Positions 18,882 through 40,825 of a stretch of 64,000 bases of DNA are shown piece after piece. The position numbers were made by a program, and so were the translations under genes. The DNA is from Anaerolineales bacterium (lineage in GTDB: Bacteria; Chloroflexota; Anaerolineae; Anaerolineales; UBA4823): positions 124,001-188,000 of the forward strand of contig JAFGJM010000036.1 in the NCBI GenBank assembly GCA_016929095.1, given 5' to 3'. The notes beneath the pieces are model-generated. The model worked only from the letters and a program-made list of their open reading frames with translations, searched no databases and was not told the origin of the DNA. Within the stretch, counting starts at the first letter, position 1, and the number at the start of each line of letters is the position of its first letter.

Positions 18882-19648
18882 TCAGTACTCAAGCGAGCCG
18901 TTGCCCCGCCATCGACGACCAAAGCCTGCCCGGTCATAAACGACGATTGCGCTTCGTCTGCCAGAAAGTAAATGGCATGGGCAATCTCTCCCGGTTTACC
19001 GATGCGCCCATTGACGGTTTTCTTGGCAAGGTTATCCAGCCGTTCCAGGATATCTCCGCCGCTTAAATGTCCGCGGTTCAAGCCGGCGCGCAGCATGGGT
19101 GTATCCACCGCGCCAGGTAAAACGGCGTTCACCCGGATATTATCAGGGGCAAATTCGATCGCCATGGCGCGGGTAAGCGCTAAAATCCCCCCCTTGCTGG
19201 CTGCATAAGCGGCGATATTGGCAGACGTCGCAATCGCATGCACCGATGAGACATTAACGACTGCCCCGCCACCAGCAATTTTAAATAACGGGTGTGCCAG
19301 TTTAACCGCCAAAAATACCGAGCTGAGATTGGACGCCAAAACCATGTTCCATTCATCAAGTGTCGTTTCCAGCATTGGTTTGGCAACTTGTACGGCGGCG
19401 TTATTCACCAGAGCATCCAGACGGTTGGTGAAAGCCCTGGCCTGGGAAAAGATATTCTCGATATTATCCGCCACCGACACATCGGATTGGATGAACAAGC
19501 CATTGGCGGGGAAATCCGCCCCGTATTCGGCGCGGTCTACGCCAATCACGCGCCAGCCCGCCTGGGTAAAAAGCGCTACCGTCGCCCGCCCAATCCCCCC
19601 TACCGCGCCGGTGATGAGCGCGGTCTTTGAGATTGATTTACTGTTCAT
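18878..19648 (-). CDS. SDR family oxidoreductase
   Basis: Classical short-chain dehydrogenase/reductase. TGAVGGIGRA is the NAD(P)-binding glycine motif, NNAA follows the fourth strand, and the catalytic Ser-Tyr-Lys is read as NVSSVHA and YAASKGG. The start chosen is ATG 19648, with GAGGAA at good distance; ATG 19660 is an alternative. It overlaps the PLD nuclease stop by 11 bases. In this setting it may oxidise or reduce a sugar intermediate like PtmA of Campylobacter flagellar glycosylation; substrate unknown. Confidence 0.9.
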   Translation of the reverse strand: MNSKSISKTALITGAVGGIGRATVALFTQAGWRVIGVDRAEYGADFPANGLFIQSDVSVADNIENIFSQARAFTNRLDALVNNAAVQVAKPMLETTLDEWNMVLASNLSSVFLAVKLAHPLFKIAGGGAVVNVSSVHAIATSANIAAYAASKGGILALTRAMAIEFAPDNIRVNAVLPGAVDTPMLRAGLNRGHLSGGDILERLDNLAKKTVNGRIGKPGEIAHAIYFLADEAQSSFMTGQALVVDGGATARLSTE

Positions 19649-20513
19649 GAATTTCCTCATCGCTTTCTCGTTGAATCCATCTCCCTTGACCCAAATGGAT
19701 GATAAATCCTAAGTCGCGCAGCTGTTGTAAAACCTGACGGATTTTCGCCTGTATATGTTTATTCTCAGGATAATATTTTTGAAACTCTTTAACATAACGA
19801 TACATTTCGTCTGTTGTAAATTCGTTTTTGGGTAAGTATTGAAATATTAGTTTTTGCCATCCGGATAGTATTTTTTGTGAAGCAAAAGGTTTTGGTAAAC
19901 TCTTTTCTCTTATACGTAATTCCTGCAATACCTGTTCAATTGGTAAAGATTTTTTTGGTTTTAGATATTGAAGATGCTTTTGCTGCAATTCAAAATATAA
20001 GTTTAAATAATCTTCATTAGGAATAAAACAGGTCGATTTATATTTAACGCGAGAATAAAAATCATAAAATGGTTGGGCTTCTTCACTATGGCTATCGGCG
20101 AAATCTAAAACCACGTTTAATTCCACGTTATCCTGTAATCCCCCACGCGTAATATTCGATGAACCAACAATTGCTCTTAAACGATTTTTATTTCTAAATA
20201 AATATAATTTAGGATGGAAAGTTTCAACATCATCCGAGGGATCACTGTAACAATATAAATGAAATTTTTCAGTATTTTCAGCCTTTTTAAGTAAATTTTT
20301 CAAAGGCATGGCTTCTGTTGTTCGAAAATCTAATCCAACAATGAACTCGACCGAATTTCCGTTATTTATACAATTATTTAAGGATGATTCAATTAATTGC
20401 AAACCCGATTGTTTAAGAAAAGCAACTGCAAACCGTACATCATGAGCGGTTACAAATTCCTCATTGATTATCGTACTCAATTTGTAACGAAAATTATCAA
20501 TTAAAAAAGTCAT
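19638..20513 (-). CDS. PLD-like (HKD) nuclease with C-terminal winged helix
   Basis: Phospholipase-D-fold protein with a single HKD site: His100 and Lys102 in TFHPKLYLF, GSSNITRGG at 117-125 and Glu131 in NVELN. Single-site members such as BfiI work as dimers on DNA. Residues 205-285 look like a helical and winged-helix region (IRQVLQQLRDLGFI, GQGRWIQ) of the kind seen at the end of some restriction enzymes. The DNA is much more AT-rich than its neighbours (18 G/C in the 60 bases from 19921). It is nevertheless locked into the operon, with an ATGA overlap upstream and an 11-base overlap downstream. Defence or DNA-repair role is inference. Confidence 0.78.
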   Translation of the reverse strand: MTFLIDNFRYKLSTIINEEFVTAHDVRFAVAFLKQSGLQLIESSLNNCINNGNSVEFIVGLDFRTTEAMPLKNLLKKAENTEKFHLYCYSDPSDDVETFHPKLYLFRNKNRLRAIVGSSNITRGGLQDNVELNVVLDFADSHSEEAQPFYDFYSRVKYKSTCFIPNEDYLNLYFELQQKHLQYLKPKKSLPIEQVLQELRIREKSLPKPFASQKILSGWQKLIFQYLPKNEFTTDEMYRYVKEFQKYYPENKHIQAKIRQVLQQLRDLGFIIHLGQGRWIQRESDEEIHEQ

Positions 20514-22763: not shown

Positions 22764-23741
22764 TTATTCTTTCAAACTATGTTTGATTTCTGCCTCATTA
22801 TACTGGATTGGCGCAACCTTTCGTGCGGATCTTTGATCGCCGATATCCACGCCTGCAGGGTAATAAAACGTTTGCCGTAATTTTGCGTTCAAGGGACCGG
22901 ATTGACGATACCCCTGGTAGGTGCCCCAAAACTGCATCCAGCGGAACCAGAAAATGCTGTTAAAGTGAGCACCCAACACTTGCTGCCGCGCTGCATGGTA
23001 CAGATCGCTGGCAATATTACTGCTCACCAGGCGGAGAAAATCCCCTAAATGAAATTGTTCTTGCGGGAAAATCCGTTTGAATGCCATAGCTTCCCGCTTA
23101 TAACGGTTGAAGACTCCCTGCGGCGTTTCGTTATGAACATGGATCACTTCCGCATCTGCCACATATGCCAATGTATTTCCTTGCTCCAACACCCACTTCG
23201 CCCAGGCGATATCCTCCAAGCCGCTCAATGTCTCATCGAAAGTATGTTTTTCCCATAAAGAACGATGGATTGCAGAGTTGGCGTTATTACAGAAAGGCTG
23301 GTCTTGATGCAGATTGGATTGCTCCGGGTACCAATGGGTAAACACCTGTTTCTCGGAAAAATGGCTGGTTTCAGCGCCGCGCTGCTTTCCGTACGCCAGG
23401 CCGTTTTTTTTGTCCTCCAGGGGCGCCAGCAAACGCTCCAGCCAATCCGGATATACCGGATACACATGGGCACTGGCGATAACCACTCGCTCGGCTTGAG
23501 TCTGGGCAATGCCCCGGTTAAGCGACCGTCCAAAGGTGAATTCATCGGGAGAAATGTGCACCACCTGAACCTGATATGCGGCAGCCACATCCAGTGTTCT
23601 ATCGGTTGAGCCTGAATCGACCAGAATTATCTGCACATCCGTAACGGTTTGTTGAGTAATGCCTTCCAGCAAACGCCCCAGGTGTCTTTCCTCATTGTAG
23701 GCGCGGATCACCACAGAACACGATGGACGATTACCAGTCAT
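22764..23741 (-). CDS. GT2 family glycosyltransferase
   Basis: GT-A glycosyltransferase resembling rhamnosyltransferases. CSVVIRAYNEERHLG opens the fold, then VDSGSTDRT, GRSLNRGI, IASAHVYP (where the usual DxD position is SAH, as in several rhamnosyltransferase-like enzymes), and a GLEDIAWAKWV acceptor-side motif with catalytic-base-like Glu-Asp. ATG 23741 was chosen because the fold starts right after it; ATG 23753 is possible. It overlaps the sulfotransferase stop upstream. Confidence 0.88.
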   Translation of the reverse strand: MTGNRPSCSVVIRAYNEERHLGRLLEGITQQTVTDVQIILVDSGSTDRTLDVAAAYQVQVVHISPDEFTFGRSLNRGIAQTQAERVVIASAHVYPVYPDWLERLLAPLEDKKNGLAYGKQRGAETSHFSEKQVFTHWYPEQSNLHQDQPFCNNANSAIHRSLWEKHTFDETLSGLEDIAWAKWVLEQGNTLAYVADAEVIHVHNETPQGVFNRYKREAMAFKRIFPQEQFHLGDFLRLVSSNIASDLYHAARQQVLGAHFNSIFWFRWMQFWGTYQGYRQSGPLNAKLRQTFYYPAGVDIGDQRSARKVAPIQYNEAEIKHSLKE

Positions 23742-24645
23742 TGTCCTTCTCATACCCCAGAGTGATCAGCAAGTCGCCGCTGATATCTTTGAATAACCGT
23801 TTGTGTTCGGGATTGAATTGGCTGCGCCACCCACCTGTTTTTCCGCTGCGGAAAGTCGGTGAGCGTTGAGGGTTGATATTGTTTTCCAAAATTCTGACCG
23901 TTTCTTCCGAATCCACGTTTAAGGGAAAACCCTTTTTCACGGCAAAATCGACCACTTTGCCTAAGACAGATTTGCGATCGGCGACAAAATCTTCAAAATG
24001 CAAAATCATTACATCCGGGCAATCCATCCAACCCAAAAACGGTTCAAAACGCTGACGGATATTGGGAAAATCGAAATCGATCCCCGGTAACCCAAGGATG
24101 CTGATCTTCAAACGTTCATCAAAATCAGGCAAATTATCCAGGTAATAGCGGTGAAGGGCATGGCGCGGCGCTAAATCGGTCACATAATGCACATGCGAGA
24201 TGACAACATCGCGGGGATCTCTTAAAATGAAATACGTGGCAAAACCATCCTGCCTTAAGAATTCCACCACCTCCGGAATGGCGTGGAGATGCCCGTAGGC
24301 AATGTCGCCGGGAAGCAATCGGTGCAAATCCTCCAGAATCTCATGCACCGCACGAGTTCTTCCGCTATCACCCTCATACATAACCACAGCCGGTAAACCG
24401 CTATCAATCGCCGGTCCCAATTGAGTAAAACCTTGTAATGCCTGAGTGAGTAAATGGGTGCCGCTTTTTGGAAATGAATTAGCGAACAGCACCGGCATGC
24501 CCTTTAGATCAAATCGCTTAAACCGGGTTTTCTGCGCGAAACGTCTTATAGTCCGCCGTACCAGACGAGCCTGCAGCTCAAGTGATTTTCGCGCAACCCG
24601 AGGTAAGATGATCAAAGGGCTTTTATTTTGTGCCAGTTTTACCAC
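23731..24645 (-). CDS. PAPS-dependent sulfotransferase (tandem copy 2)
   Basis: Sulfotransfer_1 family. The 5'-phosphosulfate loop is FANSFPKSGTHLLTQAL near residues 54-70, and the 3'-phosphate motif is FILRDPRDVVISHVHY. The C-terminus has FRSGKTGGWRSQF, the PAPS-binding RxGxxGxW-type loop. The final block GDLLITLGYEKDNDW matches GDLLIRMGYEENERW of the upstream copy, so the two are a tandem duplication. Start is a GTG overlapping the upstream stop. Confidence 0.92.
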   Translation of the reverse strand: MVKLAQNKSPLIILPRVARKSLELQARLVRRTIRRFAQKTRFKRFDLKGMPVLFANSFPKSGTHLLTQALQGFTQLGPAIDSGLPAVVMYEGDSGRTRAVHEILEDLHRLLPGDIAYGHLHAIPEVVEFLRQDGFATYFILRDPRDVVISHVHYVTDLAPRHALHRYYLDNLPDFDERLKISILGLPGIDFDFPNIRQRFEPFLGWMDCPDVMILHFEDFVADRKSVLGKVVDFAVKKGFPLNVDSEETVRILENNINPQRSPTFRSGKTGGWRSQFNPEHKRLFKDISGDLLITLGYEKDNDW

Positions 24646-25502
24646 CGTTCATTTTCTTCATAACCCATGCGGATTAACAGGTCGCCCGTCTCATGTTTAA
24701 AGATGCTTTTATTGGCTGGCGTGAAATATTCCTGCCAGTTGCCAGGCTTCCCTTTGCGAAAAGTCCCCGAGCGGCGCGGGGCAATCGCGCTCTTGATACC
24801 CGATATAGCGTGGGCGCGAGGAAGGTCACATTCAAAACCACGCAATTCTAAATAGTCCAACAATCGTCCCAAAGCCTCGTCCCGCTTTAATATCAGGTCT
24901 TCAAAGCGCAAGCATAATACGTTTGGTTGGTTTAACCATTCCAAATATTTCTCATATTTCGCACGTATTCCGGAAAGTTCCGACCCAGGCTCCTCCACAC
25001 CGCAAATGGCGGCGTTGATGCGTTCTTCCATGTCTTGTAATACTTCAGTGTAGTATTTATGCATATTATGCCCGGGATGTAGTTCGGTGGCATAAAACAC
25101 ATGCGAAATGATCATATCCCGCGGGTCTCGATAAACAAATACAGTAGCTCTGCCAGGCGCGGTTAATGCATCGATAAACGGCTGTCTGGCATGGATATAA
25201 CCATAACCGATATCACCCGGTTTCATTTTTTGAATATTGGCTAAAACCTGTTCTTCGGGCAACAGGCTGTTATCTTCACCGCGATTTACGGGAGGCATCC
25301 CCGGATTGATAAACGGCCCAATTTCGGTCAATCCCTGCAATATTTGAATGATCAGGTGCGAACCGGATTTCGGCATGGCGTTGCCCAACACAGCCGGGGT
25401 GCTGTTCAATCGGGAGGCGCCCCAGTGTAATGCCGCCACACTGCGCCTACCCTGGTAACGGATTTGTTTTAGTTGATGTTTGATTTGATGGAGTAAATTC
25501 AT
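24639..25502 (-). CDS. PAPS-dependent sulfotransferase (tandem copy 1)
   Basis: Same family and architecture as its downstream neighbour: NAMPKSGSHLIIQIL as the phosphosulfate loop, VYRDPRDMIISHVFY as the 3'-phosphate site, and FRKGKPGNWQEYF near the C-terminus. Seven bases overlap between the two genes. The acceptors probably differ, since the middle regions diverge. Starts at ATG 25502. Confidence 0.92.
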   Translation of the reverse strand: MNLLHQIKHQLKQIRYQGRRSVAALHWGASRLNSTPAVLGNAMPKSGSHLIIQILQGLTEIGPFINPGMPPVNRGEDNSLLPEEQVLANIQKMKPGDIGYGYIHARQPFIDALTAPGRATVFVYRDPRDMIISHVFYATELHPGHNMHKYYTEVLQDMEERINAAICGVEEPGSELSGIRAKYEKYLEWLNQPNVLCLRFEDLILKRDEALGRLLDYLELRGFECDLPRAHAISGIKSAIAPRRSGTFRKGKPGNWQEYFTPANKSIFKHETGDLLIRMGYEENERW

Positions 25503-25514
25503 ATGTAAAGAAAA

Positions 25515-25547
25515 TTAGTGATCAGTGAGGGGTGAGTGGTGATGGGT
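25515..25547. repeat. degenerate heptamer array
   Basis: TGATCAG, TGAGGGG, TGAGTGG, TGATGGG at 7-base spacing. It covers the last codons and stop of the DUF4910-like gene. Confidence 0.65.
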
Positions 25548-26844
25548 TTCTTTTAGGCGAAGTGGAATGGGGTGTGTGGCTGAACCAGATCAAGCCTTTC
25601 TTTTCAAACAAAGCTACTACTTCCCACACAGCTTGAAAAGGAATATCCAGTTCGCAGGCAATATCAGCCACAGTATGCTCGCCATCGCAGCGTTCCATGA
25701 TTTCGAACAGACGCAAACTGCCTTCGGGATTGGTGCGATAGTCGATCCAGATACCGTATCCTGATAGGAACACCTCACCCTTGAAATTATTGACGACATA
25801 CTGATTGCGTTCCCAGGCCTGGATCAAATCCAGAACTAACCGGCAGGAAGCTTCCAATCTTTCCTGAGATACGATTTCCGGCGTATCCAGGCTGGAGTGA
25901 TATTCCCGGTATGGTATGGGTGGATACGCCATTTTCTCCACGCGTGACAATGAGAGCATCGGCACCCGCACACCCGGTGAATTAAATTGCCGCTCATCGT
26001 TGGGAATGATCTTGCGGTAAGGTCCGGTATACCCCTGACTATCCAATCCACGGAATGCCGAAGCCATACATCGATCCGCCTGACTTTCGGGTTGTAAAGA
26101 ATACTGTAAAGCATGCGCTGAATCGTTGCCTAACATCTCCAGGAATAAGCCGCCTATCATATCCGGAATCAGATGCTCGTTATGGCTTAGATACGCCACC
26201 GAACCGATGGTCTCCGGCAACACCAAAAAGCGGTACGTGTAATACGGTTTCGCCCCAGCTAATAAACGGCGGGCAGCTTCGAGACTAACCACAACGCCGG
26301 TAAGGTCATCATTGACCATGGCTGGGTGGCATAAATGCGCCGCAAGCACAAAGGTTTGTTTGCTTTCCCCGGAAATCACCACTTCACCTACTTTAAGTGT
26401 CCCCGGTTCAAAGATGGTTTTGATAACTACCCGATATTGCTCATCCTGCAAGCTGTCACGCAATATTTGCGAAGCGCATAAACCCCAATCCCGCTCATAA
26501 TATTTAAACACAAAGGGGATAGCTTCGGGTAAACGCGGGTGCACATGGATGTGGCGCAGCAACTCTTCACGGCTGACCACGCCTTCAAAAGGAAGTGAAT
26601 ACGACACCACATGTAAAGGGTGATCAGCGTAATCGATCAGGCGTTTACCATCCAGGGTTTCCAGGTAAGCATCATGGCAGGTCCATTTTTCCGGAATGCG
26701 CCAGGTCCAACATGGCTCACCAGTGGGGTATTCGTGGATGGTCATAGGGACTTCTTGCGCCAGACGCATTAATGCCCGATCGAAACCATCCGAGATAATA
26801 TCCCGTTTGAGAAACCACAATTCATCAATTTGATTTATCATCAT
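25522..26844 (-). CDS. DUF4910/M28-like aminopeptidase-fold protein with C-terminal winged helix
   Basis: Member of the DUF4910 (DUF2172) family, which has a zinc-aminopeptidase-like domain and is often found in polysaccharide loci. Putative metal ligands lie in LAAHLCHPAMVNDDLTG (His170, His173, Asp179/180), VLPETIGS (Glu212 region) and EYHSSLDTPE. Residues 370-420 form a small winged-helix-like domain (HTVADIACELDIPFQAVWEVV). The last seven or so residues are encoded by a heptamer array. A role in deacylating or trimming an amide-linked sugar substituent is possible; the substrate of the family is not established. Confidence 0.8.
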   Translation of the reverse strand: MMINQIDELWFLKRDIISDGFDRALMRLAQEVPMTIHEYPTGEPCWTWRIPEKWTCHDAYLETLDGKRLIDYADHPLHVVSYSLPFEGVVSREELLRHIHVHPRLPEAIPFVFKYYERDWGLCASQILRDSLQDEQYRVVIKTIFEPGTLKVGEVVISGESKQTFVLAAHLCHPAMVNDDLTGVVVSLEAARRLLAGAKPYYTYRFLVLPETIGSVAYLSHNEHLIPDMIGGLFLEMLGNDSAHALQYSLQPESQADRCMASAFRGLDSQGYTGPYRKIIPNDERQFNSPGVRVPMLSLSRVEKMAYPPIPYREYHSSLDTPEIVSQERLEASCRLVLDLIQAWERNQYVVNNFKGEVFLSGYGIWIDYRTNPEGSLRLFEIMERCDGEHTVADIACELDIPFQAVWEVVALFEKKGLIWFSHTPHSTSPKRNPSPLTPH

Positions 26845-28415
26845 GAAAACCTGGATATTTTTCTTATTTTTTCTGACGAACTTACTTTTAAAACGATCTC
26901 TTCGATTCCGATTATGGCAAATATAATGAGGAGCGGCTCAAAAGGCACCCGCATAGCAGGAATAGATGGAAGACCTAAAATTGTATAAAACAAGATGACA
27001 AAATTTATCAAACAAATAAAAGCTAAAGCTTTATTTTTCATATTGAAATTTAATACTAATCCCATAACACCAAATAGTAGCCAAAGCAAAGGGGGCAAGA
27101 AACATTTACTGATCGTATTAAATATGAGTGCCATTATTTCATCGCCATCTCGAGATGGTAGTATGCTTTCAAAAAAAGCTATCCGTGAGTTGAATTTATC
27201 CACCTTTTCTTGTGTAACAGGATCAAGAAATTTTAATTCCACTGAATTTGGATCTGTTTTAAATTTTCCGGTAGGTGAAAAGCTATTCCCATAATAGTAC
27301 GATCTTGGGATAAAATCACCTTCAGTTGGGACTGGTAATCCATTGTGATAAAGAGTTTCCTGTTTAGTATTAATAACTCGTATTGATTGAGATTGGGAGT
27401 AACTTTTAAGCAGTATGCCTGCAAAAGATTTAAAAACACTTAACAAATATTCTTTAGGACATTTATATATCGCCTCTAAACCCACACGTTTTAATATCCG
27501 ATAATCTGAATCCCAACCGTATATCTCATCAGAAAGACCAATAAGGTCTCCAAACATTCTCGAAGTACCTTTACTAAAAAATATTTCTTTAGTGATTCCG
27601 TATGAACGATATGGCTCTTTACTTAATATAAATTTCTCTACATCATTGGTAAGTTGAGCAGATGCTTTTCCATTTTCCGGGTTTACTGTATGAGTAATAA
27701 GAAAAACACGATATAGAGGTATTTGTGCATTATTTGTTCGTGCAATAGTGAAATCGTCATATCGCACAAAATTATATGTACACCACAACAGAACTAATGG
27801 AATTAAAATCCCTAAAAAGGATAATGCATAAATCGATTTTTCTTTAAACGAAGAGTTAAATAAAATATAAGGGGCAACCGCATAAAGTACATACGCAATT
27901 AATGTTGGGCGAGTTAAAATTAAAAGAAAAACCATTGCGCCTAGCCCAATAAATTCCTTCACCCCTGGATTATGAACGATCTTCAAAAAAAATAAACACC
28001 ATAAAATAAATAACAAAGATAATGGCGCTTCGCTGGATATCGTATGGTAGATCGCCCCATATGACGGATAAAAATTTACTATTAAGGCAGAAATGAAAGC
28101 CAATTTAATCGACCACATTTTAGTAATATGGTAAATGCCAATTATTGCCCCGCTATAAAGTAAACCCATAACCAATTCGGTTAACACCACACCACCGAGT
28201 GAAAGAAGCAAACCATAAAGTAAAGGTGCTATAGGTGTCCGCAACAACATCATTATCTTGAATACTGGTTCTTTGGATAAGATATCGAGATAGTATGTAA
28301 TATAATTTCCACCATCCCTACCCAGTGTAAAAGGCCAGGCAATACTTTGCATATAGTATGTTGCTAACGCTACAAAGAACAATATAGGGACTTCAAGTTT
28401 TCTAATTATCTTCAT
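26841..28415 (-). CDS. AT-rich GT-C-like membrane protein
   Basis: Polytopic membrane protein, 524 residues. The first outside loop has FTLGRDGGNYITYYLDIL, an acidic GRD motif where GT-C glycosyltransferases place the catalytic acid; TRPTLIAY follows in a cytosolic loop. An outside domain spans about residues 225-410, then four more hydrophobic segments. The DNA is far more AT-rich than its neighbours (15 G/C in the 60 bases from 27421), suggesting separate acquisition. It is coupled on both sides (ATGA downstream, TGATG upstream). Confidence 0.72.
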   Translation of the reverse strand: MKIIRKLEVPILFFVALATYYMQSIAWPFTLGRDGGNYITYYLDILSKEPVFKIMMLLRTPIAPLLYGLLLSLGGVVLTELVMGLLYSGAIIGIYHITKMWSIKLAFISALIVNFYPSYGAIYHTISSEAPLSLLFILWCLFFLKIVHNPGVKEFIGLGAMVFLLILTRPTLIAYVLYAVAPYILFNSSFKEKSIYALSFLGILIPLVLLWCTYNFVRYDDFTIARTNNAQIPLYRVFLITHTVNPENGKASAQLTNDVEKFILSKEPYRSYGITKEIFFSKGTSRMFGDLIGLSDEIYGWDSDYRILKRVGLEAIYKCPKEYLLSVFKSFAGILLKSYSQSQSIRVINTKQETLYHNGLPVPTEGDFIPRSYYYGNSFSPTGKFKTDPNSVELKFLDPVTQEKVDKFNSRIAFFESILPSRDGDEIMALIFNTISKCFLPPLLWLLFGVMGLVLNFNMKNKALAFICLINFVILFYTILGLPSIPAMRVPFEPLLIIFAIIGIEEIVLKVSSSEKIRKISRFS

Positions 28416-29215
28416 CAGGGATTATTCGGACGGTTGATCACAAGCGACCATGGATCTTTGTATAAAAAATCATCCACAGTCGCAACAAAATCTCGCATCG
28501 AACAAAAAGAAACATATCCGTAATTCAAAGGCAGGGAATGCCATTGTCCCCGCTTTTCCATTACCTCTTTCACCCCATGCAAATCGAGGCGCGGGTCGAT
28601 AGACATATCGCGGACAAACATTCGGTAGGTGCGCAGTTGCCAGCCTTCGGATGTTTTCACCTGCCCGGAAAAATCTTTCCAATAACGATAGGGTACCGCA
28701 GCACGTTGTTCGCTATAGTGCAGAGCCGAAATTGCATTCACATCAGCTCCCAAAAGCAGGATCTTAAATCCCAGTTCTAACATCCGGTCGAATGCCGAAG
28801 TGGGATCGAAAGCTGAGGCGGTATCACGACCGGTGATGTCATCAGCATATTTACCGATTACCGCCAGCGATTGCATCGGATGCGATGTGCGCCGGGCAGC
28901 CGGATGTTGGCGCACCATTTCCGAAAAAACGCCCATCCCTTGTGAAGGCGTACTTTGCGGATCGTAAGGTTCCCCGCGCGCAAATCCGAAATTGAAGGTC
29001 GGTACTGCCAACGTCCCCGAGTTGGGTGACTCTAAACTATCCGTCTTATCAAGATTGATACCCAGGTTTTCACATAAAGCGTTCAAATAGATACTCGCAC
29101 CGCCTTGCGGTTGACCCAGGTATTGAATGGCAGAATGCACCAATACTCCATCCCCACTGCGCACACCCAATTCATCTAAAATATTGATTATCTGATTTAA
29201 TGTAACCGCCTGCAT
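28415..29215 (-). CDS. AAC(3)-family N-acyltransferase
   Basis: Member of the aminoglycoside 3-N-acetyltransferase family, 266 residues. Typical segments: GDGVLVHSAIQYLG, GTLAVPTFNFGF, GVFSEMVRQHPAARRTSHPMQSLAVIG with the conserved RTSHP, and the HYSEQRAAVPYRY region. In surface-glycan loci such enzymes N-acylate amino sugars rather than antibiotics. Directly downstream of a GNAT and the aminoacyl carrier-protein genes, so it could use acetyl-CoA or an acyl carrier; this is inference. Confidence 0.88.
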   Translation of the reverse strand: MQAVTLNQIINILDELGVRSGDGVLVHSAIQYLGQPQGGASIYLNALCENLGINLDKTDSLESPNSGTLAVPTFNFGFARGEPYDPQSTPSQGMGVFSEMVRQHPAARRTSHPMQSLAVIGKYADDITGRDTASAFDPTSAFDRMLELGFKILLLGADVNAISALHYSEQRAAVPYRYWKDFSGQVKTSEGWQLRTYRMFVRDMSIDPRLDLHGVKEVMEKRGQWHSLPLNYGYVSFCSMRDFVATVDDFLYKDPWSLVINRPNNP

Positions 29216-29728
29216 TTATCCGTTCTTTTCATCGATATACTCATCCCACATCAGGCGGGCAACCCGGTATTCGATTTTGAAGCCCATGCGGTCGTACAAT
29301 CTCCAGATGGCATCATTCTCGCGCAACATCTCCACTTCCACCGAGTGAACTTTCTGCTCCCGGAACCAATCGATGGTCAGGCGGGAAAGTTTCTCACCCA
29401 CACCCAGGCAGCGCGCTTCGGGTTCCACCCACATATCGCTGAATTGACCCACCACCACGCTGCCCATATAAGCCGGCACCGGCTTTAACCTGCCAAGCAT
29501 AAACCCGACTACTTTGTGGTCGACTTCTGCTACGATAACCACACTGAAACGTCCCAATGTACGCTTGAATGAATCTAACCAGGCTTCGCCCACATTCTCG
29601 GGGTGCGGCATGCGATAACCCACTTCGTAATAGTACGTATTAAGAAGGGTATACATCTCCACCAGGGCGGAAAAATCGACTGGTGTGGCAAAACGGTAAT
29701 TTACTTGAGGGGTAGTTGCATCATTCAC
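29216..29728 (-). CDS. GNAT family acyltransferase
   Basis: GCN5-related N-acyltransferase, 170 residues. The fold is seen from YRFATPVDFSALVEMY through VVAEVDHKVVGFMLG, then the acyl-CoA/pantetheine-binding segment FSDMWVEPEARCLGVGEKL, where the usual Q/RxxGxG loop reads RCLGVGEKL, and NDAIWRLYDRMGFKIEYRV. It overlaps the aminoacyl-carrier ligase gene by 8 bases, so the likely donor is either acetyl-CoA or the aminoacyl carrier protein. Confidence 0.88.
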   Translation of the reverse strand: MNDATTPQVNYRFATPVDFSALVEMYTLLNTYYYEVGYRMPHPENVGEAWLDSFKRTLGRFSVVIVAEVDHKVVGFMLGRLKPVPAYMGSVVVGQFSDMWVEPEARCLGVGEKLSRLTIDWFREQKVHSVEVEMLRENDAIWRLYDRMGFKIEYRVARLMWDEYIDEKNG

Positions 29729-30911
29729 CGAAATAATCCTTAACAGTCTGCGGCCATTTCTGAATATCTAATCCATATTGCGATAAGAAAGCATATGCCA
29801 TGCGTTCCAACCCAAACGCTGTGCAGCCGGTATGCACCGGGCTGCCATCCGGTAAGGTGATGTTCAAGTGCCGACCAAAGAAATCCTGGTGATAGTTATA
29901 TGAGCCTACCGCCAGGGTACTGTTTTTAAATGGCAGGTTGGCGCGGATTTCATATTTTAGTTGAAAAGCGCTTTGAAAAGCCGCTTGTTTGCGGAATTCG
30001 CCCACAAAGAAGGGGTCATTGGCTGTTTCTACCCGGTATGCCAGACCGATATCTTCAAAGGCTTTCGCCATGTATTTTCGTGAGGCTTCCCGATTTTCCA
30101 ACACAAAGTCTTTCTCGCCAACAAAGATCAATTCCCACATGGTGAAATTCCACAATCTCTCCAGTGAGGTTAAATTAATAGACTCGTATCGAAAGCATGG
30201 TCCAACCGCAGTGGCAATCATTTTCCCCCCCGGCAAAGGTTTATCTGCCAAAGCAAAATACAAGTGGTAACACACCGCTGGCGATAATAAAGCCTGAATT
30301 TTTGCGAACGATTCGGGCAGCTGGTTGAGATCGCCATGTTCGTCACAGCAGGCAGATTGCGCAAAATGATCGATGGCATCCAGGTCTTCCCGTAAATGCG
30401 TGGCAAAGGTCAAAGAATGAGGAAATGCCTTAAAATAATTCACCCGCTCGAGGTATCTGGCTGGAATCAGGACTGGGAAACGATAAGGTTGTGCATCAAA
30501 GGTGGCTGCCAGCGCAATAAAGTTATCTTCAAAAAATTCAACCAGTCGTGTAACCAAAGGTCCCAATGTGAATATCCCATCCGCCTCACAATGCAGTTCA
30601 CCGCGCTGCATTAATTCAGGCATGGGATCATTTGTGTTAAGCGTAGGGGCAGACATATTATCTTCCAACACCTGCACTTTAGGGCGAAATGACCCTTGGG
30701 TCATGGTTGTCACCACGCGCTGAATTTTTTCTTCAACCCTTTGGCGCAATAATTCGTCTACTGGTCGGTTTACTTCAAGAATGATTTTCTGTCCATCTTT
30801 AGAAATTTGCGCTTTGCAGATGACTTCATCCACATACGCTAATTTAGATTGCACTTCGCCGATCAGGTGCTCGGGAATGGGGGGTTGGGAAATTATCTCG
30901 AGTGTATTCAT
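29721..30911 (-). CDS. amino acid:[carrier protein] ligase (class II aaRS-like)
   Basis: Homologue of the catalytic core of class II aminoacyl-tRNA synthetases of the atypical seryl type, which in studied relatives (Bradyrhizobium Bll0957) loads an amino acid on the phosphopantetheine arm of a carrier protein instead of tRNA. Motif 2 is GPCFRYES (240s) and motif 3 is FGLERMAYA (366-374). Likely zinc ligands are Cys214 (SPAVCYH), Glu260 (TMWELIF) and Cys363 (HTGCTAF). There is no tRNA-binding coiled coil; an unassigned domain of about 85 residues precedes the core. ATG 30911 forms an ATGA overlap with the carrier-protein gene. Amino acid specificity (Gly, Ala or other) cannot be told. Confidence 0.85.
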   Translation of the reverse strand: MNTLEIISQPPIPEHLIGEVQSKLAYVDEVICKAQISKDGQKIILEVNRPVDELLRQRVEEKIQRVVTTMTQGSFRPKVQVLEDNMSAPTLNTNDPMPELMQRGELHCEADGIFTLGPLVTRLVEFFEDNFIALAATFDAQPYRFPVLIPARYLERVNYFKAFPHSLTFATHLREDLDAIDHFAQSACCDEHGDLNQLPESFAKIQALLSPAVCYHLYFALADKPLPGGKMIATAVGPCFRYESINLTSLERLWNFTMWELIFVGEKDFVLENREASRKYMAKAFEDIGLAYRVETANDPFFVGEFRKQAAFQSAFQLKYEIRANLPFKNSTLAVGSYNYHQDFFGRHLNITLPDGSPVHTGCTAFGLERMAYAFLSQYGLDIQKWPQTVKDYFGE

Positions 30912-31159
30912 GAGGTTTTCTCTTTCTTCGTCAGGTAATCGCAAATCGCTGGCACACTGACCAGGGCAGTAATGGTCTCGTTATTTATTTCAATGTCAAA
31001 TTTCTGCTCCAGCATCATCATCACTTCCATATGCCCCATCGAATCCCATTGTGGCAGGTCTCCTAATTCCAGTTCGGGGGTGATAGTCTCGATGGGGGTT
31101 TGCAAGGCTTCAGCTAATGTTGCCTGCACTTGTTCAATAAGTGATACATTAATGTTCAT
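30908..31159 (-). CDS. acyl/aminoacyl carrier protein
   Basis: Phosphopantetheine-binding carrier protein, 83 residues. The attachment serine is Ser40 in LPQWDSMGHMEVMMMLEQKFDIEI, the DS(L/M)-type motif of carrier proteins, here DSMGH. Acidic and helical as expected. It is translationally coupled to the aminoacyl ligase, which is the usual pairing for aminoacyl carrier systems rather than for fatty-acid ACP. No phosphopantetheinyl transferase gene is present, so loading must use a host enzyme encoded elsewhere. Confidence 0.92.
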   Translation of the reverse strand: MNINVSLIEQVQATLAEALQTPIETITPELELGDLPQWDSMGHMEVMMMLEQKFDIEINNETITALVSVPAICDYLTKKEKTS

Positions 31160-31179: not shown

Positions 31180-31236
31180 GTAATAGTGAGAGGTGAGAGG
31201 GGATTCGGTATTACCTGATTACCAGATGCCTAATAA
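31180..31236. repeat. degenerate heptamer array
   Basis: GTAATAG, TGAGAGG, TGAGAGG then TTACCTGA, TTACCAG, ATGCCTA at about 7-base spacing, filling the gap between the carrier-protein start and the methyltransferase stop. Confidence 0.6.
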
Positions 31237-32120
31237 CCTTTCATCCTACACACCCCCACAATCTGATATTGCGGATCCCATTTACCCCAGGGCATGCCGT
31301 TGTCAGCGGAAGTGAAATAAAATTTTGCCAGGTTATCGCGCAGCTCGGCGCAATTCTTTAATTGAAAAAACAATCCATCATACTGGCTATAATTGGAAGG
31401 CGCATCGGGGGAAAGCTGAAAAATTCGCCGTAAGCTGTCTTCCGTATAGTTCCAGCCTTTGGATGGCTCGTGGAACCAATCCTGATCACGCGCTGCACCC
31501 AGGGTTGCCAGCAACTTTCCACCCGGCTTTAGACAACGCAATAACTCGACCACCACCGCTTCCAACGCCTGCGGTTGATTGTGCTCCAGGGCAGAGACCG
31601 CCACAATGGCGTCAATCGAATTGGAAGGAATAGCTTCCAATTCTGCCAGATCGCAATCGTAAACCTGAACCTGCCCCGGTGCTTCAGTAAAGGTGACTGC
31701 GCCTTCCAATTCCCTCCATATGAATTTCAGTTTGCCCGCCAAACTGGGCAAGCGTTTTAAATTATTGAACAATGCCTTTAGTGGACCGTTGAGCGGTTGG
31801 GTTTCATTTTTTGTTTTCACGTGATAGCGTTTTCGAAAACGCAAAGGCATATCGGCGCGGCTGCCGCGATCCACACTGATAATCCGGGCATTATGTTCTG
31901 CCAGGTACCATTGCATGACCCCCAGCCCGGCGCCGGCATCCATAATAGTTACTCCCTCGATTTTTTCTAAATGGCTTATCAGCCAGGTGAGGTCCAATAG
32001 ATAATGCCAGCCAAAATCCAAGCCTAACTTGCGAGCCAGCAGCCGAAGCTCATTCACCAGCGTACGATGATCCTCCAGTAACGAAACAGGGAGTATCTCA
32101 ATGAAATCTTGAGTATTCAT
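31230..32120 (-). CDS. class I SAM-dependent methyltransferase
   Basis: Methyltransferase fold with motif I as VTIMDAGAGLGVMQWYLAEH near residues 57-76, acidic strand-2 end ISVDRGS, then an insertion of about 70 residues before IDAIVAVSALEHN and LLRCLKPGGKLLATLG. 296 residues. ATGA overlap with the capsule-type glycosyltransferase upstream. Likely modifies a sugar or terminates chain growth; substrate unknown. Confidence 0.85.
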   Translation of the reverse strand: MNTQDFIEILPVSLLEDHRTLVNELRLLARKLGLDFGWHYLLDLTWLISHLEKIEGVTIMDAGAGLGVMQWYLAEHNARIISVDRGSRADMPLRFRKRYHVKTKNETQPLNGPLKALFNNLKRLPSLAGKLKFIWRELEGAVTFTEAPGQVQVYDCDLAELEAIPSNSIDAIVAVSALEHNQPQALEAVVVELLRCLKPGGKLLATLGAARDQDWFHEPSKGWNYTEDSLRRIFQLSPDAPSNYSQYDGLFFQLKNCAELRDNLAKFYFTSADNGMPWGKWDPQYQIVGVCRMKGY

Positions 32121-33751
32121 CTAAGTTCTTCCAACATAAAGGGTTTGTTTTCCGTGATTCCTTCAAAAATGGCTTTGATAGCAGGGGCATTTTGCGGTAA
32201 CAATTGCTCCCAGTTAAAATTATTCATACGCACAAACCCAGGTCGCGCCCCGGTTTGTAGAAAAGTTTCAAAGGGTAATGAAATTCGATAAAGCTGATAA
32301 TATAAAAAACGGCGGGCATTGCGTTGAAAATCCGGGGGGATTTCTATGTGATCTTCCACAAGAAAGCGCTTTGCCATTCGATGATATTCATCTTCATTTT
32401 GAGGCAGAAACACGATTGGGTATTGGGTATAGCGGGCCTTTCCGGCGCATAGAACCGCTGCCCCCATTAGCGCCGCTTCCAAACCGATCGAAGAATTATA
32501 GACCATGATAAATTTCGAGCGTTGGATCAACTCATAGGAGCTGATAAATTCCTGCGAATCAATAAAAACCACGTTAGGCAGCTCGTTGATCCGGTTGTTG
32601 AATACCCAATCATGCACACTCTCCCGGCTTTGTTTGGCTGTGCCAGGGCGCATTTCATCCGGGTGAGCGCGGATGATAAACAGGGTTTCCGGGTGCGCTT
32701 TGATGATCTCCTGTACGCCATCCAACCAGGCAAACATATGCTCAAATAGCGTATTGGCATGAACCTGGCTGGTATCATAAATCACATTCGTAAATACCGG
32801 CACAATTTGTTTGAAATTGGCAGCTTTTTGTAAAAATGCTTCATCTAAATCCTTCATCTCTGGCCAAAAACGGATCCCTGCCATGGTGAATTTTCCCTTA
32901 AAGCGTCCTTCCAGATAGCTATCCAGACGAGTTTCCTGATCAGATGTCAACTCAAACGACTCGGGAATATGCACGGGATAGGCGGTGGCTTCTCCATCGG
33001 TGAAGAATGAGGAAAATCGCTGGAAGCCAACTTCATGCGTGATCACGCGGACCCCCCTTTGATTGGCTACCCAACGCGCCATCGCTTCGGGATACATAAT
33101 TCCGTTAAAGATCAAAGCGACAAATGGATGCGTTTCATCGATCAGGCGGTTGAATTCCAGGGCAATGGAAAACGCCGAAAGCATAAATTGGCGGAATAGA
33201 TAACGGGTTGATTCGTCATCCGGTAAAGTATATCGGCGCAGCGTCCATCGCATGGCGGGTAATGCCAGTTTTCCTAAAGGAATAGACCTCATAAAAAATC
33301 CTGCCGGATCGCGGTATTCGAAAGTAGATAATGTTCCAATATCTAAGTCTTTCAAAACCGCTACCAGGTCTGCATCTGCTTTGAACTTAAACCAATAACT
33401 CTTTCCCCCGGCATATAAACGTAGAGACTGAGCAACACACTTTTCACACGGCGGCGGTGTATGGTATTCCTGTCGGTTTACGCCCAGCACGCAGTGACTC
33501 ATCCCCGATTGACAGACAAAATGAACCACCGGAATACCTGCCAGGCGTAATCCCCAAGCGGTTAATAGTGTGAAAGCATTATTTTGACTCAGCCCGGTTA
33601 ACCGGGAGGAGACATTCATCACCAGAAGAGGCTGGCTTTCCGGATTACTGGGCGCATGAACAGCAACCTGGTTCGCAATACGCTGAATGCGTTGGCGGTT
33701 TTGATATTCCAACCAGCCCCTTTGTAAACGGTCCAACAATGAACGTTTCAT
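32117..33751 (-). CDS. capsule-synthesis-type glycosyltransferase-like protein (paralogue 1)
   Basis: Soluble GT-B-like protein, 544 residues, resembling capsule polysaccharide synthesis (KpsC/KpsS-like) transferases. The C-terminal half shows FIIRAHPDEMRPGT (the HPxE-like motif, here HPDE), the serine/threonine-rich turn SSIGLEAALMGAAVLCAGKARY typical of nucleotide-sugar binding in this group, and YNSS. The N-terminal 170 residues include a CEKCVAQSL Cys pair. A paralogue is at 53092-54735. In KpsC/S the donor is CMP-Kdo; a CMP-nonulosonic acid donor would fit this locus. Confidence 0.78.
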   Translation of the reverse strand: MKRSLLDRLQRGWLEYQNRQRIQRIANQVAVHAPSNPESQPLLVMNVSSRLTGLSQNNAFTLLTAWGLRLAGIPVVHFVCQSGMSHCVLGVNRQEYHTPPPCEKCVAQSLRLYAGGKSYWFKFKADADLVAVLKDLDIGTLSTFEYRDPAGFFMRSIPLGKLALPAMRWTLRRYTLPDDESTRYLFRQFMLSAFSIALEFNRLIDETHPFVALIFNGIMYPEAMARWVANQRGVRVITHEVGFQRFSSFFTDGEATAYPVHIPESFELTSDQETRLDSYLEGRFKGKFTMAGIRFWPEMKDLDEAFLQKAANFKQIVPVFTNVIYDTSQVHANTLFEHMFAWLDGVQEIIKAHPETLFIIRAHPDEMRPGTAKQSRESVHDWVFNNRINELPNVVFIDSQEFISSYELIQRSKFIMVYNSSIGLEAALMGAAVLCAGKARYTQYPIVFLPQNEDEYHRMAKRFLVEDHIEIPPDFQRNARRFLYYQLYRISLPFETFLQTGARPGFVRMNNFNWEQLLPQNAPAIKAIFEGITENKPFMLEELR

Positions 33752-35637
33752 TTACCTTCCTGGGCTTTGAAATAGGCATCCGATAAACGCTGGATGGCAA
33801 TCAGGAAACCCTCACCTTTGCGCTGGTGACCGCGCCAGATTTCCGGGATCATTGTGCCATGGTAATCGCCGATGACCTTAAAGAAGTGCACCCAATCAAT
33901 GGTTCCCTCTCCAATTTGTAACCCCTCACCGTCCAAACCGGCAGCATCGGATAAGTGCAGATGACCAATATATGGCAGTATTGCCTGTACCTGGTCGTAG
34001 AAATCGACGTGCGCCCAGTTGCAATACAATTTGGAATGGGATGTATCGAAACACATATTCAAGCCCAACGGCTTGACGAAATCGATGATTTCATAAGTAT
34101 CCATAAACGCATTGGTCAGCCATTGCCCGCCAAAATACCAGGGGTGAGGCGGCAGGTTTTCCAGTAACATCTCCACCCCCTCGTGATCAATTTGCTCGAC
34201 CGAACGATGCAAATTATCGTATAGCATTTTATGGTCTTTAATCGGGTTATCCAGGCTCATGGCGCCGGGATGCACAATAACCTTAGGTTTGCCCACAAAA
34301 TGCGGCGCCATTTCACGCGTTAAATTTATCGCCTTCTGGATCAAAGCCACCGAATCGTTTCTCTGTTCTTCATCACTGGCGCATAGATCCACCAGAGTAC
34401 GATCCCAGAATTCCGGCGCATGAACCACAAGTTGGAAATCGAAATCCGTGCCAGGGTATGGCTCATCCAGATCCTGGTCGGTGCAGTGAAATTCCAGCAA
34501 GTGCGGATTATAGGCTAACAATTCCTCAAAATCACGAAAGCGCACTGTGAAGCCATAATCCATTGGCAGGGTATGCGAGTTATCCAACTCGATTTTGATG
34601 CCCAGATCCTTTTCTAAAAAAGGCTCGTCCTCTTCGATGACACGCTCCGCTGTCCGTCCCAACAGTTTGAGATAGTTTTGAGGTGAGATACCTAACGCAG
34701 GCCCTTTAACGGCGATTTTCTCGGCGGTAATTGTCTCGCCAGGCTGGATCGATTTAGCGGCTACCAGGCTTTTGCCTAATACCTCACGGTTCAAAATTTC
34801 ACCGCGGGAGATAAATTTCTCTTCGCCGGTGCCCAGGGCAGCAGTCACCTGTTCGATATCGCGCACCATCTTCTTGAAACCCTGCGGTTCAAGGCTGGCG
34901 GCGTGATCGGGACCATCCATCGTGCGGTCAAGAGTCAGGTGACGCTCGATGATGCTGGCGCCTAACACAGATGCAACGGTGGAGACGGCAATCCCCCGCT
35001 CGTGTCCCGAATAGCCCACTGGCACGCCGAATTGCCGCAGCCGCTCCATGAAGCGCAAATTGATATCTTCGAAGGCTGCCGGATAGGTGCTGTTGCAGTG
35101 CAGCAAAGCAAATTTCGCGCCGCGTTCTTTAAGAAAGTTCACTGTTATTTCTACTTCTTCCAGGCGAGACATGCCGGTGGAAAGGATGAGCGGCTTGCCT
35201 TTATTTATCAGGTGATCCAAAAGCGGAAGGTTGGTTAAATCGGCGGAAGCCACTTTGTACGCCGGCATGTTCAGAGTTTCCAAAAAGTCGGCTGCCGGAA
35301 TATCAAATGCAGAACAAAGAAACGTGATATTTTTCTTTTCACAATATTCGACAATTTCGTAATAATCCTTCTCGGAAAGCTCGACCTGCTGCAAAATAGG
35401 CAGCATGTAACGCAAGGTTTTCTCTCCGGCGTTGACATTATCCAGGTACTTCTTGGCATAGAGCTTATCCAGGGTACGTTTTTGGAACTTAACCGCATCG
35501 GCGCCGCAATCCACAGCAATATCGATCAATTTCATGGCTAATGCTAAAATACCATTGTGATTGACGCCAATCTCGGCTATGATATATGTTGGGTGTCCAT
35601 CGCCTATCAGGCGATCACCTATTTTTATTATGGGCAT
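33748..35637 (-). CDS. NeuB-type synthase with SAF domain fused to a second TIM barrel
   Basis: Residues 1-265 form an N-acetylneuraminate/legionaminate/pseudaminate synthase barrel (AEIGVNHNG, DAVKFQKR, KVASADLTNLPLL, LSTGMSRLEEV, HCNSTYPA, GYSGHERG, IERHLTLDR, GPDHAASL), condensing phosphoenolpyruvate with a 6-carbon sugar. Residues 285-350 are a SAF domain (SLVAAKSIQPGETI, KGPALGISP, EEDEPF). Residues 365-629 look like a xylose-isomerase/AP-endonuclease-2 barrel (VIVHPGAM, MLLENLPPH, NMCFDTSHS, HLHLSD, EGTIDW, PEIW), i.e. a sugar isomerase or epimerase. The ATG at 35637 has GGAGGA 4-5 bases before it; ATG 35649 is rejected. The fusion may make and then use its own sugar substrate; inference. 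Confidence 0.88.
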   Translation of the reverse strand: MPIIKIGDRLIGDGHPTYIIAEIGVNHNGILALAMKLIDIAVDCGADAVKFQKRTLDKLYAKKYLDNVNAGEKTLRYMLPILQQVELSEKDYYEIVEYCEKKNITFLCSAFDIPAADFLETLNMPAYKVASADLTNLPLLDHLINKGKPLILSTGMSRLEEVEITVNFLKERGAKFALLHCNSTYPAAFEDINLRFMERLRQFGVPVGYSGHERGIAVSTVASVLGASIIERHLTLDRTMDGPDHAASLEPQGFKKMVRDIEQVTAALGTGEEKFISRGEILNREVLGKSLVAAKSIQPGETITAEKIAVKGPALGISPQNYLKLLGRTAERVIEEDEPFLEKDLGIKIELDNSHTLPMDYGFTVRFRDFEELLAYNPHLLEFHCTDQDLDEPYPGTDFDFQLVVHAPEFWDRTLVDLCASDEEQRNDSVALIQKAINLTREMAPHFVGKPKVIVHPGAMSLDNPIKDHKMLYDNLHRSVEQIDHEGVEMLLENLPPHPWYFGGQWLTNAFMDTYEIIDFVKPLGLNMCFDTSHSKLYCNWAHVDFYDQVQAILPYIGHLHLSDAAGLDGEGLQIGEGTIDWVHFFKVIGDYHGTMIPEIWRGHQRKGEGFLIAIQRLSDAYFKAQEGK

Positions 35638-35660
35638 TAAATCCTCCATGGGGGATAAGA

Positions 35661-35785
35661 AGCTGTCGGCTATCAGCCGTCAGCTTTCAGATAATTTGAA
35701 TAGAAAATTGAGAATCGAGAATCGATCACTTGGAACAAATAAACGCGAACAAAGCGCCTGACGCTTAATCACCTGACACTTAAAC
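35661..35785. repeat. three degenerate heptamer arrays
   Basis: 35661-35693: GTCGGCT, ATCAGCC, GTCAGCT, TTCAGAT. 35707-35727: TTGAGAA, TCGAGAA, TCGATCA. 35754-35785: GCCTGAC, GCTTAAT, CACCTGA, CACTTAA. Each has 7-base period; together they fill most of the 142-bp gap upstream of the NeuB fusion. Confidence 0.68.
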
Positions 35786-36529
35786 ACTTTTTATCTCAAA
35801 CCCCAGTTCTTCAAAGGTCAACTCGCCGCTCTCTAATAGTCTTTCAGCACGGCGCCAGTCATCCGGGGAATCAATGTCAATCCAATCACTGGGTGGAATA
35901 ATCAAAGGTAGGATATTATCTCCGGTCATCGAATTTTTATCTAGAATGGTATCCGCCCAGGCAGCATCGACATATCCGGTCTGCCAATAAACCTCCGGCA
36001 GCGCCTGGCGGGGCAGGTTATAGGCTTCTTGAAATGGTGTGTCTATCAAAGGATGCATGAGCCCATCTTCGGTGATGCGCCACATCTTGAAGGGATTTTG
36101 AAAAGGCACACATACGGTTCGCACGGCATCGGCATCCGGGCGTTCGATCAACCGGTATACCGCCTGGTCAATATGATGGACACGGCGGAAAGGTGAAGTG
36201 GGGCGTAGTTGTACTACGATTTCAGGTTTATACCCCTCATTCTCCTCCAACCACTGCAAGGCATGCTGGAAAACCGGTAGGTCGGGCGTCTGATCCTGGG
36301 AGAAATCCGCCGGTCGCAGAAATGGCGTCTCGGCGCCATAACGGCGGGCGATGACGGCAATCTCTTCGTCATCTGTGGAGACAATCACACGCGTGACCGT
36401 CTCGGCTGCCAGGCCGGCTGCGATGCTATAAGCTATCAGCGGATACCCGGCGAAAAGCCGGATATTTTTACGCGGAATGCTTTTCGAACCACCGCGAGCT
36501 GGAACAATGGCTAACGCTTCAGTTACCAT
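35780..36529 (-). CDS. neuA: CMP-nonulosonic acid synthetase (acylneuraminate cytidylyltransferase)
   Basis: Activates a nonulosonic acid with CTP. AIVPARGGSKSIPRKNIRLFAGYPLI is the complete CTP-binding signature of the family, followed by VIVSTDDEEIA, QLRPTSPFR, QTGYVDAAW and a C-terminal IDIDSPDDW metal-binding motif. 249 residues. ATG 36529 overlaps the SDR stop by 7 bases. Gene order SDR - synthetase - NeuB matches the ptmA-ptmB-legI arrangement of legionaminic acid synthesis in Campylobacter, so legionaminic acid or a relative is the best guess for the product. Confidence 0.93.
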   Translation of the reverse strand: MVTEALAIVPARGGSKSIPRKNIRLFAGYPLIAYSIAAGLAAETVTRVIVSTDDEEIAVIARRYGAETPFLRPADFSQDQTPDLPVFQHALQWLEENEGYKPEIVVQLRPTSPFRRVHHIDQAVYRLIERPDADAVRTVCVPFQNPFKMWRITEDGLMHPLIDTPFQEAYNLPRQALPEVYWQTGYVDAAWADTILDKNSMTGDNILPLIIPPSDWIDIDSPDDWRRAERLLESGELTFEELGFEIKSV

Positions 36530-37356
36530 ACCGACCATCCCCCATCGACAATAATATTAGCACCGGTGACGTAAGCTGAGGCATCCGAAGCCAGGAAAAT
36601 CAAAGCGCCGTTCATGTCATCCTTATATGCCATGCGTCCCATCACAGTCTTTGCCGAATAGGCTTTCACAAAAGCCTCATCGTGCCCGTTAAATACCCCT
36701 CCCGGTGATATAGCATTCACGCGGATGTTTTTACCGGCGTAATAAGCTGCCAGGTAGGTTGTTAATCCCAGAATACCGGTTTTGGTGACCGGATAGTAAG
36801 CAGGTTTATATGCCGGTTCCTCGCCTGGCTTTTGATACAGACGCTGATCGGGAGCGGTTATTCCATAGATCGAACTCATATTGATCATCACCCCCCCGCC
36901 CTGCGCAAGCATCACCCGCCCAGCCGCCTGGCAGCACAGGAATGCGCCAGTCAGGTTGACCGAAAGCGCCCGATTCCATAAGTCCAACGGATAATCCTCA
37001 AAAACATTCGTGTGCCCGCCATGCTGGGGATCGAATTTCGGATCCAACGCCGCGCTGTTAACCAGAATATCCAGGCGGTCATAGGCTTTCATTGTAGCTT
37101 CCACCATAGCCGCGACGGATTGCCGATCAGTTACATCTACACGCAGCGAAATAGCGCTACCGCCATGGCGGTTAATATCGTCGGCGACATGTGCTGCTGA
37201 AGCCTCATCCAGATCGGCGATTACAATACGGGCGCAAGCTTCCGCCAGCGTGTGGCAGAATTCTGCACCCAATAAACCCGCCCCGCCGGTCACCACCGCC
37301 ACACGGTCAGTCAAATCGAATAATTGGGGTAATTTGTGTTTGTGAGTATCAGACAT
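36523..37356 (-). CDS. SDR family oxidoreductase (PtmA-like context)
   Basis: Classical SDR of 277 residues. VVTGGAGLLGAEF is the cofactor site, VNSAA follows strand 4, and the catalytic residues appear as NMSSIYG and the Tyr-Lys pair in YYPVTKTGILGL; the C-terminal GANIIVDGG is typical. It is translationally coupled to the CMP-sugar synthetase. In Campylobacter a similar SDR (PtmA) stands next to the CMP-legionaminic acid synthetase; its exact step is not settled. Confidence 0.92.
   Translation of the reverse strand: MSDTHKHKLPQLFDLTDRVAVVTGGAGLLGAEFCHTLAEACARIVIADLDEASAAHVADDINRHGGSAISLRVDVTDRQSVAAMVEATMKAYDRLDILVNSAALDPKFDPQHGGHTNVFEDYPLDLWNRALSVNLTGAFLCCQAAGRVMLAQGGGVMINMSSIYGITAPDQRLYQKPGEEPAYKPAYYPVTKTGILGLTTYLAAYYAGKNIRVNAISPGGVFNGHDEAFVKAYSAKTVMGRMAYKDDMNGALIFLASDASAYVTGANIIVDGGWSVW

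Positions 37357-39049: not shown

Positions 39050-40825
<1,776 letters not shown>

Follow-up and report, generated by a model that had tools for sequence, protein, structure and literature searches.

To what do the carrier-protein ligases derived from seryl-tRNA synthetase (SerRS) pass the amino acids that they activate? Structures of these enzymes have been solved and their chemistry is known; the literature searched establishes no acceptor, and no experiment on one was found in it. The stretch analysed here (the window: 64,000 nt of contig JAFGJM010000036.1, positions 124,001-188,000, from an Anaerolineales bacterium of UBA4823; all coordinates are window-based) carries such a ligase in a small gene cassette within a surface-glycan locus. 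We propose, with a probability of roughly 60% for the full mechanism, that the cassette activates an amino acid on a carrier protein and that an acyltransferase of the AAC(3) fold moves it to a sugar of the surface glycan. The original prediction had named four consecutive genes with small overlaps, and these were confirmed as four minus-strand open reading frames lying back to back at 31159-28415 in the order carrier, ligase, GNAT and AAC(3)-type acyltransferase. Carrier and ligase overlap by 4 bases (ATGA), ligase and GNAT by 8, GNAT and AAC(3) abut, and AAC(3) overlaps the next gene by 1. This core stands as first described, but the unit continues to a DUF4910 gene (25522-26844), and GNAT is missing from five related loci. 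The genes concerned are as follows.

30908..31159, minus strand: carrier protein, 83 amino acids (PF00550, PP-binding, E 2.6e-7), with Ser40, in WDSMGHM, as the phosphopantetheine site.
29721..30911, minus strand: class II (SerRS-like) amino acid:[carrier protein] ligase of an N-extended subfamily, 396 amino acids (tRNA-synt_2b; Bll0957, E 7.7e-39).
29216..29728, minus strand: GNAT N-acyltransferase, 170 amino acids, an optional cassette member (PF00583, Acetyltransf_1, E 9.6e-13).
28415..29215, minus strand: AAC(3)-fold N-acyltransferase, 266 amino acids, the proposed aminoacyl transferase (PF02522, Antibiotic_NAT, E 2.4e-34).
26841..28415, minus strand: PMT_2-type membrane glycosyltransferase (PF13231), between AAC(3) and DUF4910 in the window, not a constant member.
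25522..26844, minus strand: DUF4910/M28-like protein of the zinc-peptidase fold, 440 amino acids, a cassette member (PF16254, E 1.2e-64; PDB 3k9t, E 1.7e-60).

The ligase length is counted from ATG; an alternative TTG start at 30944 adds 11 amino acids. In most other loci DUF4910 follows closely behind AAC(3), unlike in the window with its intervening PMT_2-type gene. The arrangement is not a chance one, because the catalytic residues do not vary among 39 carriers, 41 ligases and 38 AAC(3) copies, and about 40 other genomes share the gene order.

A genome scan recovered 53 related loci, 42 of them in Chloroflexota. The conserved order begins with an oxidoreductase, ATP sulfurylase/APS kinase, an SDR protein, CMP transferase, NeuB, a capsule glycosyltransferase and a methyltransferase, proceeds through the cassette itself (acyl carrier protein (ACP), ligase, GNAT where present, AAC(3) and DUF4910), and ends with sulfotransferases, a glycosyltransferase, a second cytidylyltransferase and a 2-hydroxyacid dehydrogenase; single members are absent from some loci. 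Counted over loci with sufficient sequence, the neighbourhood contains AAC(3) in 36/36, DUF4910 in 31/32, ACP in 38/39 and GNAT in 34/39. The expected co-occurrence of the four genes was thus borne out, in that they travel together in the same glycan locus, but GNAT is not constant. Since loci without GNAT occupy two separate positions in the ligase tree (L012/L015/L020 and L027; L018, which also lacks it, was left out of the tree), this gene has probably been lost more than once.

Co-occurrence was counted over 301 Anaerolineales genomes, 46 with the ligase and 255 without. The AAC(3) clade, delimited at E <= 1e-40 to the window protein, is found in 44 genomes, all of them among the 46 with the ligase, and in 0/255 others; the two ligase genomes that lack it are fragmented assemblies. 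The hypergeometric p for this association, uncorrected for shared descent, is 6.6e-51 when counted by genome and 1.9e-22 when counted by genus. DUF4910 of the close type (> ~60% identity) is encoded in 43/46 ligase genomes vs 2/255 others, both incomplete, and the family as a whole is not cassette-specific, as distant DUF4910 proteins are common in ligase-negative genomes. One locus scored as ligase-negative (L136) has a ligase fragment at its contig end, and the genome search therefore slightly undercounts. The capsule glycosyltransferase is encoded in 236/301 genomes, nearly always in single copy, showing that the host glycan locus is far more widespread than the cassette. In the ligase-negative locus L137 the flanks are joined in the order capsule glycosyltransferase, methyltransferase, sulfotransferase, glycosyltransferase; in L141 the capsule glycosyltransferase is followed directly by the glycosyltransferase, and L138, L142 and L144 are similar. 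Because the flanks close up in these relatives, the backbone pathway is independent of the cassette, which fits a decoration module. The genes ACP-ligase-(GNAT)-AAC(3)-DUF4910 are one accessory cassette that is gained and lost as a unit in a fixed glycan locus. The viral contigs searched contained no relative.

The assignment of the ligase as a class II amino acid:carrier-protein ligase, and not the SerRS of the cell, is supported by its sequence, fold, zinc site and gene pairing. Bll0957 is its top PDB sequence match, with Cys214/Glu260/Cys363, FRYE and GLER aligned; in the alignment, the zinc ligands C214/E260/C363, motif 2 R241/E243 and motif 3 R370 are kept in 41/41 copies. The carrier likewise retains D39-S40 in 39/39 aligned copies. 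Of the NCBIfam models, amino acid--[acyl-carrier-protein] ligase (NF005479) ranks first at 168.8 bits, and since its cut-off of 357 is not reached, the protein is filed as a divergent subfamily rather than as the named equivalog. The same three NCBIfam models, and no others, match the window protein and all 18 members scanned. The whole subfamily shares about 90 additional N-terminal residues relative to Bll0957. The structural model called for by the original prediction, here from AlphaFold2 (pLDDT 84.9), matches the methanogen-type SerRS 2cj9 as its top fold match and also the carrier-protein ligase 4h2s/3mf1, 4h2s being a glycine:carrier-protein ligase in complex with its carrier. A carrier gene with the phosphopantetheine Ser lies beside the ligase in 38/39 loci with room upstream, and the sole exception (L039) has a stretch of N, an assembly gap, at the carrier position. 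On a maximum-likelihood tree the ligases of Anaerolineales fall in a single supported clade (99/83) and those of its sister clade are proteobacterial (99/89); both clades are far from the Bll0957 type, and long branches leave the deeper order unsure. Amino acid specificity is not readable from the ligase alignment. Judged from its family, the ligase very probably loads an amino acid on the carrier.

The AAC(3)-type protein has His112, His166 and Glu169 in 38/38 copies. Its AlphaFold2 model (pLDDT 95.6) matches AAC(3) structures with a TM score of about 0.8, as well as FrbF, with the catalytic His kept and an identity to the PDB matches of about 17-25%. PDB titles name the H29A and H168A mutants of an AAC(3) relative, and by alignment offset these residues correspond to His27 and His166 here. 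The NCBIfam AAC(3) models cover only residues 5-191 (100.8 bits vs a cut-off of 270), indicating that the core is the same and the C-terminal part has diverged. In GNAT the coenzyme A (CoA) loop R-x-x-G-x-G is largely kept, with R-C-L-G-V-G in the window version. DUF4910 matches the putative peptidase 3k9t and retains the HP..ND, PET and YH..D motifs.

From these features the following route is proposed. A phosphopantetheinyl transferase, of which the genome encodes two of the AcpS type, would arm the carrier at Ser40. The ligase would then adenylate a small amino acid, its alpha-amine held on the zinc, and load the carrier with it as a thioester, a step strongly indicated by the family. In the cytoplasm the AAC(3)-fold enzyme may move the aminoacyl group from the carrier to the amine of a sugar precursor, most likely the nonulosonic acid or some other amino sugar that the locus produces. 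Where present, GNAT, which retains the CoA loop, is a probable acetyltransferase for the newly introduced free amine or for a second site, and DUF4910, on the slighter ground of its zinc-hydrolase fold, is a candidate for trimming or deprotecting the acyl or aminoacyl group. The flanking glycosyltransferases would build the finished sugar into a sulfated surface polymer. We suggest, tentatively and at a little short of even odds, that this clade of AAC(3)-fold enzymes consists of aminoacyl-[carrier protein]:amino-sugar transferases acting on nonulosonic acid or a related surface sugar. Two reported cases count in favour of the proposal: Vibrio vulnificus is known to have a legionaminic acid with an alanyl group, Leg5Ac7AcAla (PMC7371886), and BtrH is an acyltransferase from a carrier to an aminoglycoside (PMC10318531).

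Each part of this scheme resembles a known system and departs from it. With the ligases Bll0957, Bll6282 and Atu2573 (PDB 3mey, 4h2s) the window ligase shares the class II core, the Cys-Glu-Cys zinc site, motifs 2 and 3 and an adjacent carrier, but its N-terminal extension is in outline that of a methanogen-type SerRS. With the aminoglycoside acetyltransferases and FrbF, all of the Antibiotic_NAT family, the AAC(3)-type protein shares the fold and the catalytic His/Glu positions; it differs in its low identity, its diverged C-terminal part and its tie to a ligase and carrier. The proposed transfer of an AMP-activated amino acid by way of a small carrier to a cell-envelope glycan is like teichoic acid D-alanylation by DltABCD. 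DltA belongs to the ANL family and DltB to the MBOATs, whereas the ligase of the window is SerRS-like and its AAC(3)-fold enzyme is soluble. Passage of a carrier-bound amino acid to an amino-sugar amine, as proposed here, also recalls butirosin side-chain transfer (carrier BtrI, transferase BtrH), although BtrH has a papain-like fold (PMC10318531) and the ligase and pathway differ.

Which of the two soluble enzymes performs the transfer had been left open between GNAT and AAC(3), and AAC(3) is the likelier aminoacyl transferase, because it is invariant and never found without the ligase. The reverse division of labour, in which GNAT transfers the amino acid and AAC(3) acetylates or acylates the sugar from CoA, is unlikely. 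It would suit the position of GNAT, directly behind the ligase and overlapping it in most loci, the transfer of amino acids by GNAT-fold enzymes elsewhere (MprF/VlmA, Fem; PMC2922099) and the crystallisation of AAC(3)-fold enzymes in the PDB with CoA or acetyl-CoA. However, in the five loci without GNAT, at two places of the tree, AAC(3) is the only soluble acyltransferase of the unit, and its clade is confined to ligase-bearing genomes among the 301.

Outside Chloroflexota, two alphaproteobacteria combine the N-extended ligase with a carrier and an MBOAT in a DltABCD-like arrangement: Sphingopyxis (L060) has the order ligase-ACP-GNAT-MBOAT, and a metagenome-assembled genome (MAG) of Rhodospirillaceae (L048) has ACP-ALGX/SGNH-MBOAT-ligase, with an AlgX-like SGNH protein. 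These loci, together with the DltA/DltC/DltB/DltD precedent (PMC12930378), raise the prospect of an export route, in which an MBOAT passes the carrier-bound amino acid outside to be esterified to the polymer. One MBOAT is indeed encoded in the window's genome, but it is the only one and lies on contig C15, the window being on C51, so that the two form no Dlt-type operon; no MBOAT was recognised in the Anaerolineales loci read, which have the soluble AAC(3) in its place. This makes such a route improbable here. Sampling of 289 genomes of the class of Sphingopyxis yielded Sphingopyxis itself as the only close family member, which limits the MBOAT association to two loci.

We give equally little credence to the view that the product of the module is a small peptide or another metabolite and that its place beside the glycan genes is incidental. 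Non-ribosomal peptide synthesis was the role first proposed by Mocibob et al., as quoted in PMC2922099, and a distant N-extended ligase of Streptomyces lies among ketosynthase, condensation and AMP-binding genes in a natural-product-like cluster. Against this, some 40 genomes have the cassette in a fixed position within a single glycan locus. No gene for a condensation enzyme, a thioesterase or peptide export was recognised there, and the whole set is absent elsewhere while the glycan flanks are intact. A Bll0957-type ligase in Azospirillum stands in yet another setting (carrier, acyl-CoA dehydrogenase, ligase, DUF1839, GH2 glycosidase), unlike the AAC(3), GNAT and DUF4910 partners of the window ligase. 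From partners as varied as AAC(3), MBOAT, the Azospirillum set and the Streptomyces cluster, it appears that the ligase-carrier pair has been reused with different transferases. In two Magnetococcales loci (L051, 11434-12558; L055, 7219-8334) a convergent protein of about 370 amino acids adjoins the pair; the L051 copy, the one of the two that was tested, matched no Pfam family.

That the ligase is a truncated SerRS paralogue acting on tRNA is very improbable and was rejected: methanogen-type SerRS models cover most of its length (141.8 bits) and 2cj9 is its top fold match, but every SerRS score is far under its cut-off (611 for the methanogen type), the true, complete SerRS of the genome (510 bits) is on contig C4, the N-terminal part is no longer than about 90 residues, and wherever contig and assembly permit the ligase has a carrier gene as its partner.

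Four points weigh against aminoacyl transfer to a surface sugar by AAC(3). The ligase scores under the NCBIfam cut-off of the characterised family. The solved AAC(3)-fold enzymes among the matches are CoA-dependent or named acetyltransferases, and a carrier-protein donor is what we infer for the window enzyme. A sugar aminotransferase is missing from the locus, and the genome's one strong DegT match is on contig C21. Finally, the mirror-tree distance correlation between ligase and AAC(3) is 0.54, vs 0.65 and 0.62 with the backbone glycosyltransferase; co-evolution gives no extra support, as it fails to separate cassette from backbone genes.

Decoration of a glycan had been put forward in the original prediction as a new use of this chemistry. 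That claim was too strong, since Iyer et al. (PMC2922099) predicted in a 2010 note in proof that this ligase family aminoacylates a surface sugar, so that the general idea is an older one. New, as far as the literature searched shows, are the AAC(3)-based transferase, the DUF4910 partner, the defined nonulosonate/sulfate locus and the statistics of the unit. With a ligase tied all-or-none to one soluble acyltransferase in one glycan locus, the acceptor can be sought in a short biochemical experiment. If the proposal is true, the surface polymers of some Anaerolineales bear amino acids, part of the AAC(3) family is biosynthetic and carrier-protein-dependent, outside antibiotic resistance, and the SerRS-like ligases have a proven acceptor. 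Detection of the product is practical, because nonulosonic acids and sulfation have been reported in granular sludge polymers (PMC10483923).

The surrounding locus supplies the presumed acceptor, and its main genes are these.

24639..25502, minus strand: sulfotransferase, downstream flank (PF00685, E 5.4e-10), directly behind the upstream flank in ligase-negative L137 and L144.
31230..32120, minus strand: methyltransferase, upstream flank, part of the glycan backbone (PF08241), also beside the gap in ligase-negative L137, L142 and L144.
32117..33751, minus strand: capsule-type glycosyltransferase, upstream flank (PF05159).
33748..35649, minus strand: NeuB-family nonulosonic acid synthase fused to a C-terminal TIM-barrel isomerase-like domain (PF03102, E 5.7e-86; PF08666; PF01261).
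35780..36538, minus strand: CMP-nonulosonate cytidylyltransferase, PseF-like (PF02348; TIGR03584 164.6 bits, below the cut-off of 205.7).

The pairing of a NeuB synthase (PF03102) with a CMP transferase (PF02348) marks a nonulosonic acid locus, although the NCBIfam cut-offs for named sugars are not reached. The glycan is probably sulfated, as the locus encodes ATP sulfurylase/APS kinase (39050-40822) and two Pfam-supported sulfotransferases (23731-25502); more sulfotransferase-like reading frames, judged by eye, lie at 41994-44233. A second NeuB-type synthase and a PseB over its cut-off (498 bits) are encoded at 48907-49974 and 51137-52141, with no PseC-type aminotransferase near them. In other Anaerolineales NeuB lacks the TIM-barrel domain and it is the CMP transferase that carries a fusion, to a HAD phosphatase, as if one fusion replaced the other; an apparent absence of NeuB from some loci proved wrong, the gene being present there without the TIM barrel. 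One Anaerolineales MAG has a radical SAM/SPASM protein (L015, 5882-6949) between CMP transferase and NeuB. Within the glycan locus of the window, a PLD-domain protein (19638-20513) has a DpnI_C winged helix and weak similarity to NgoFVII endonuclease, and an MNT-like nucleotidyltransferase gene (PF18765; 22421-22762) separates two glycan genes that are neighbours in other genomes and has the look of a toxin-antitoxin-type insertion.

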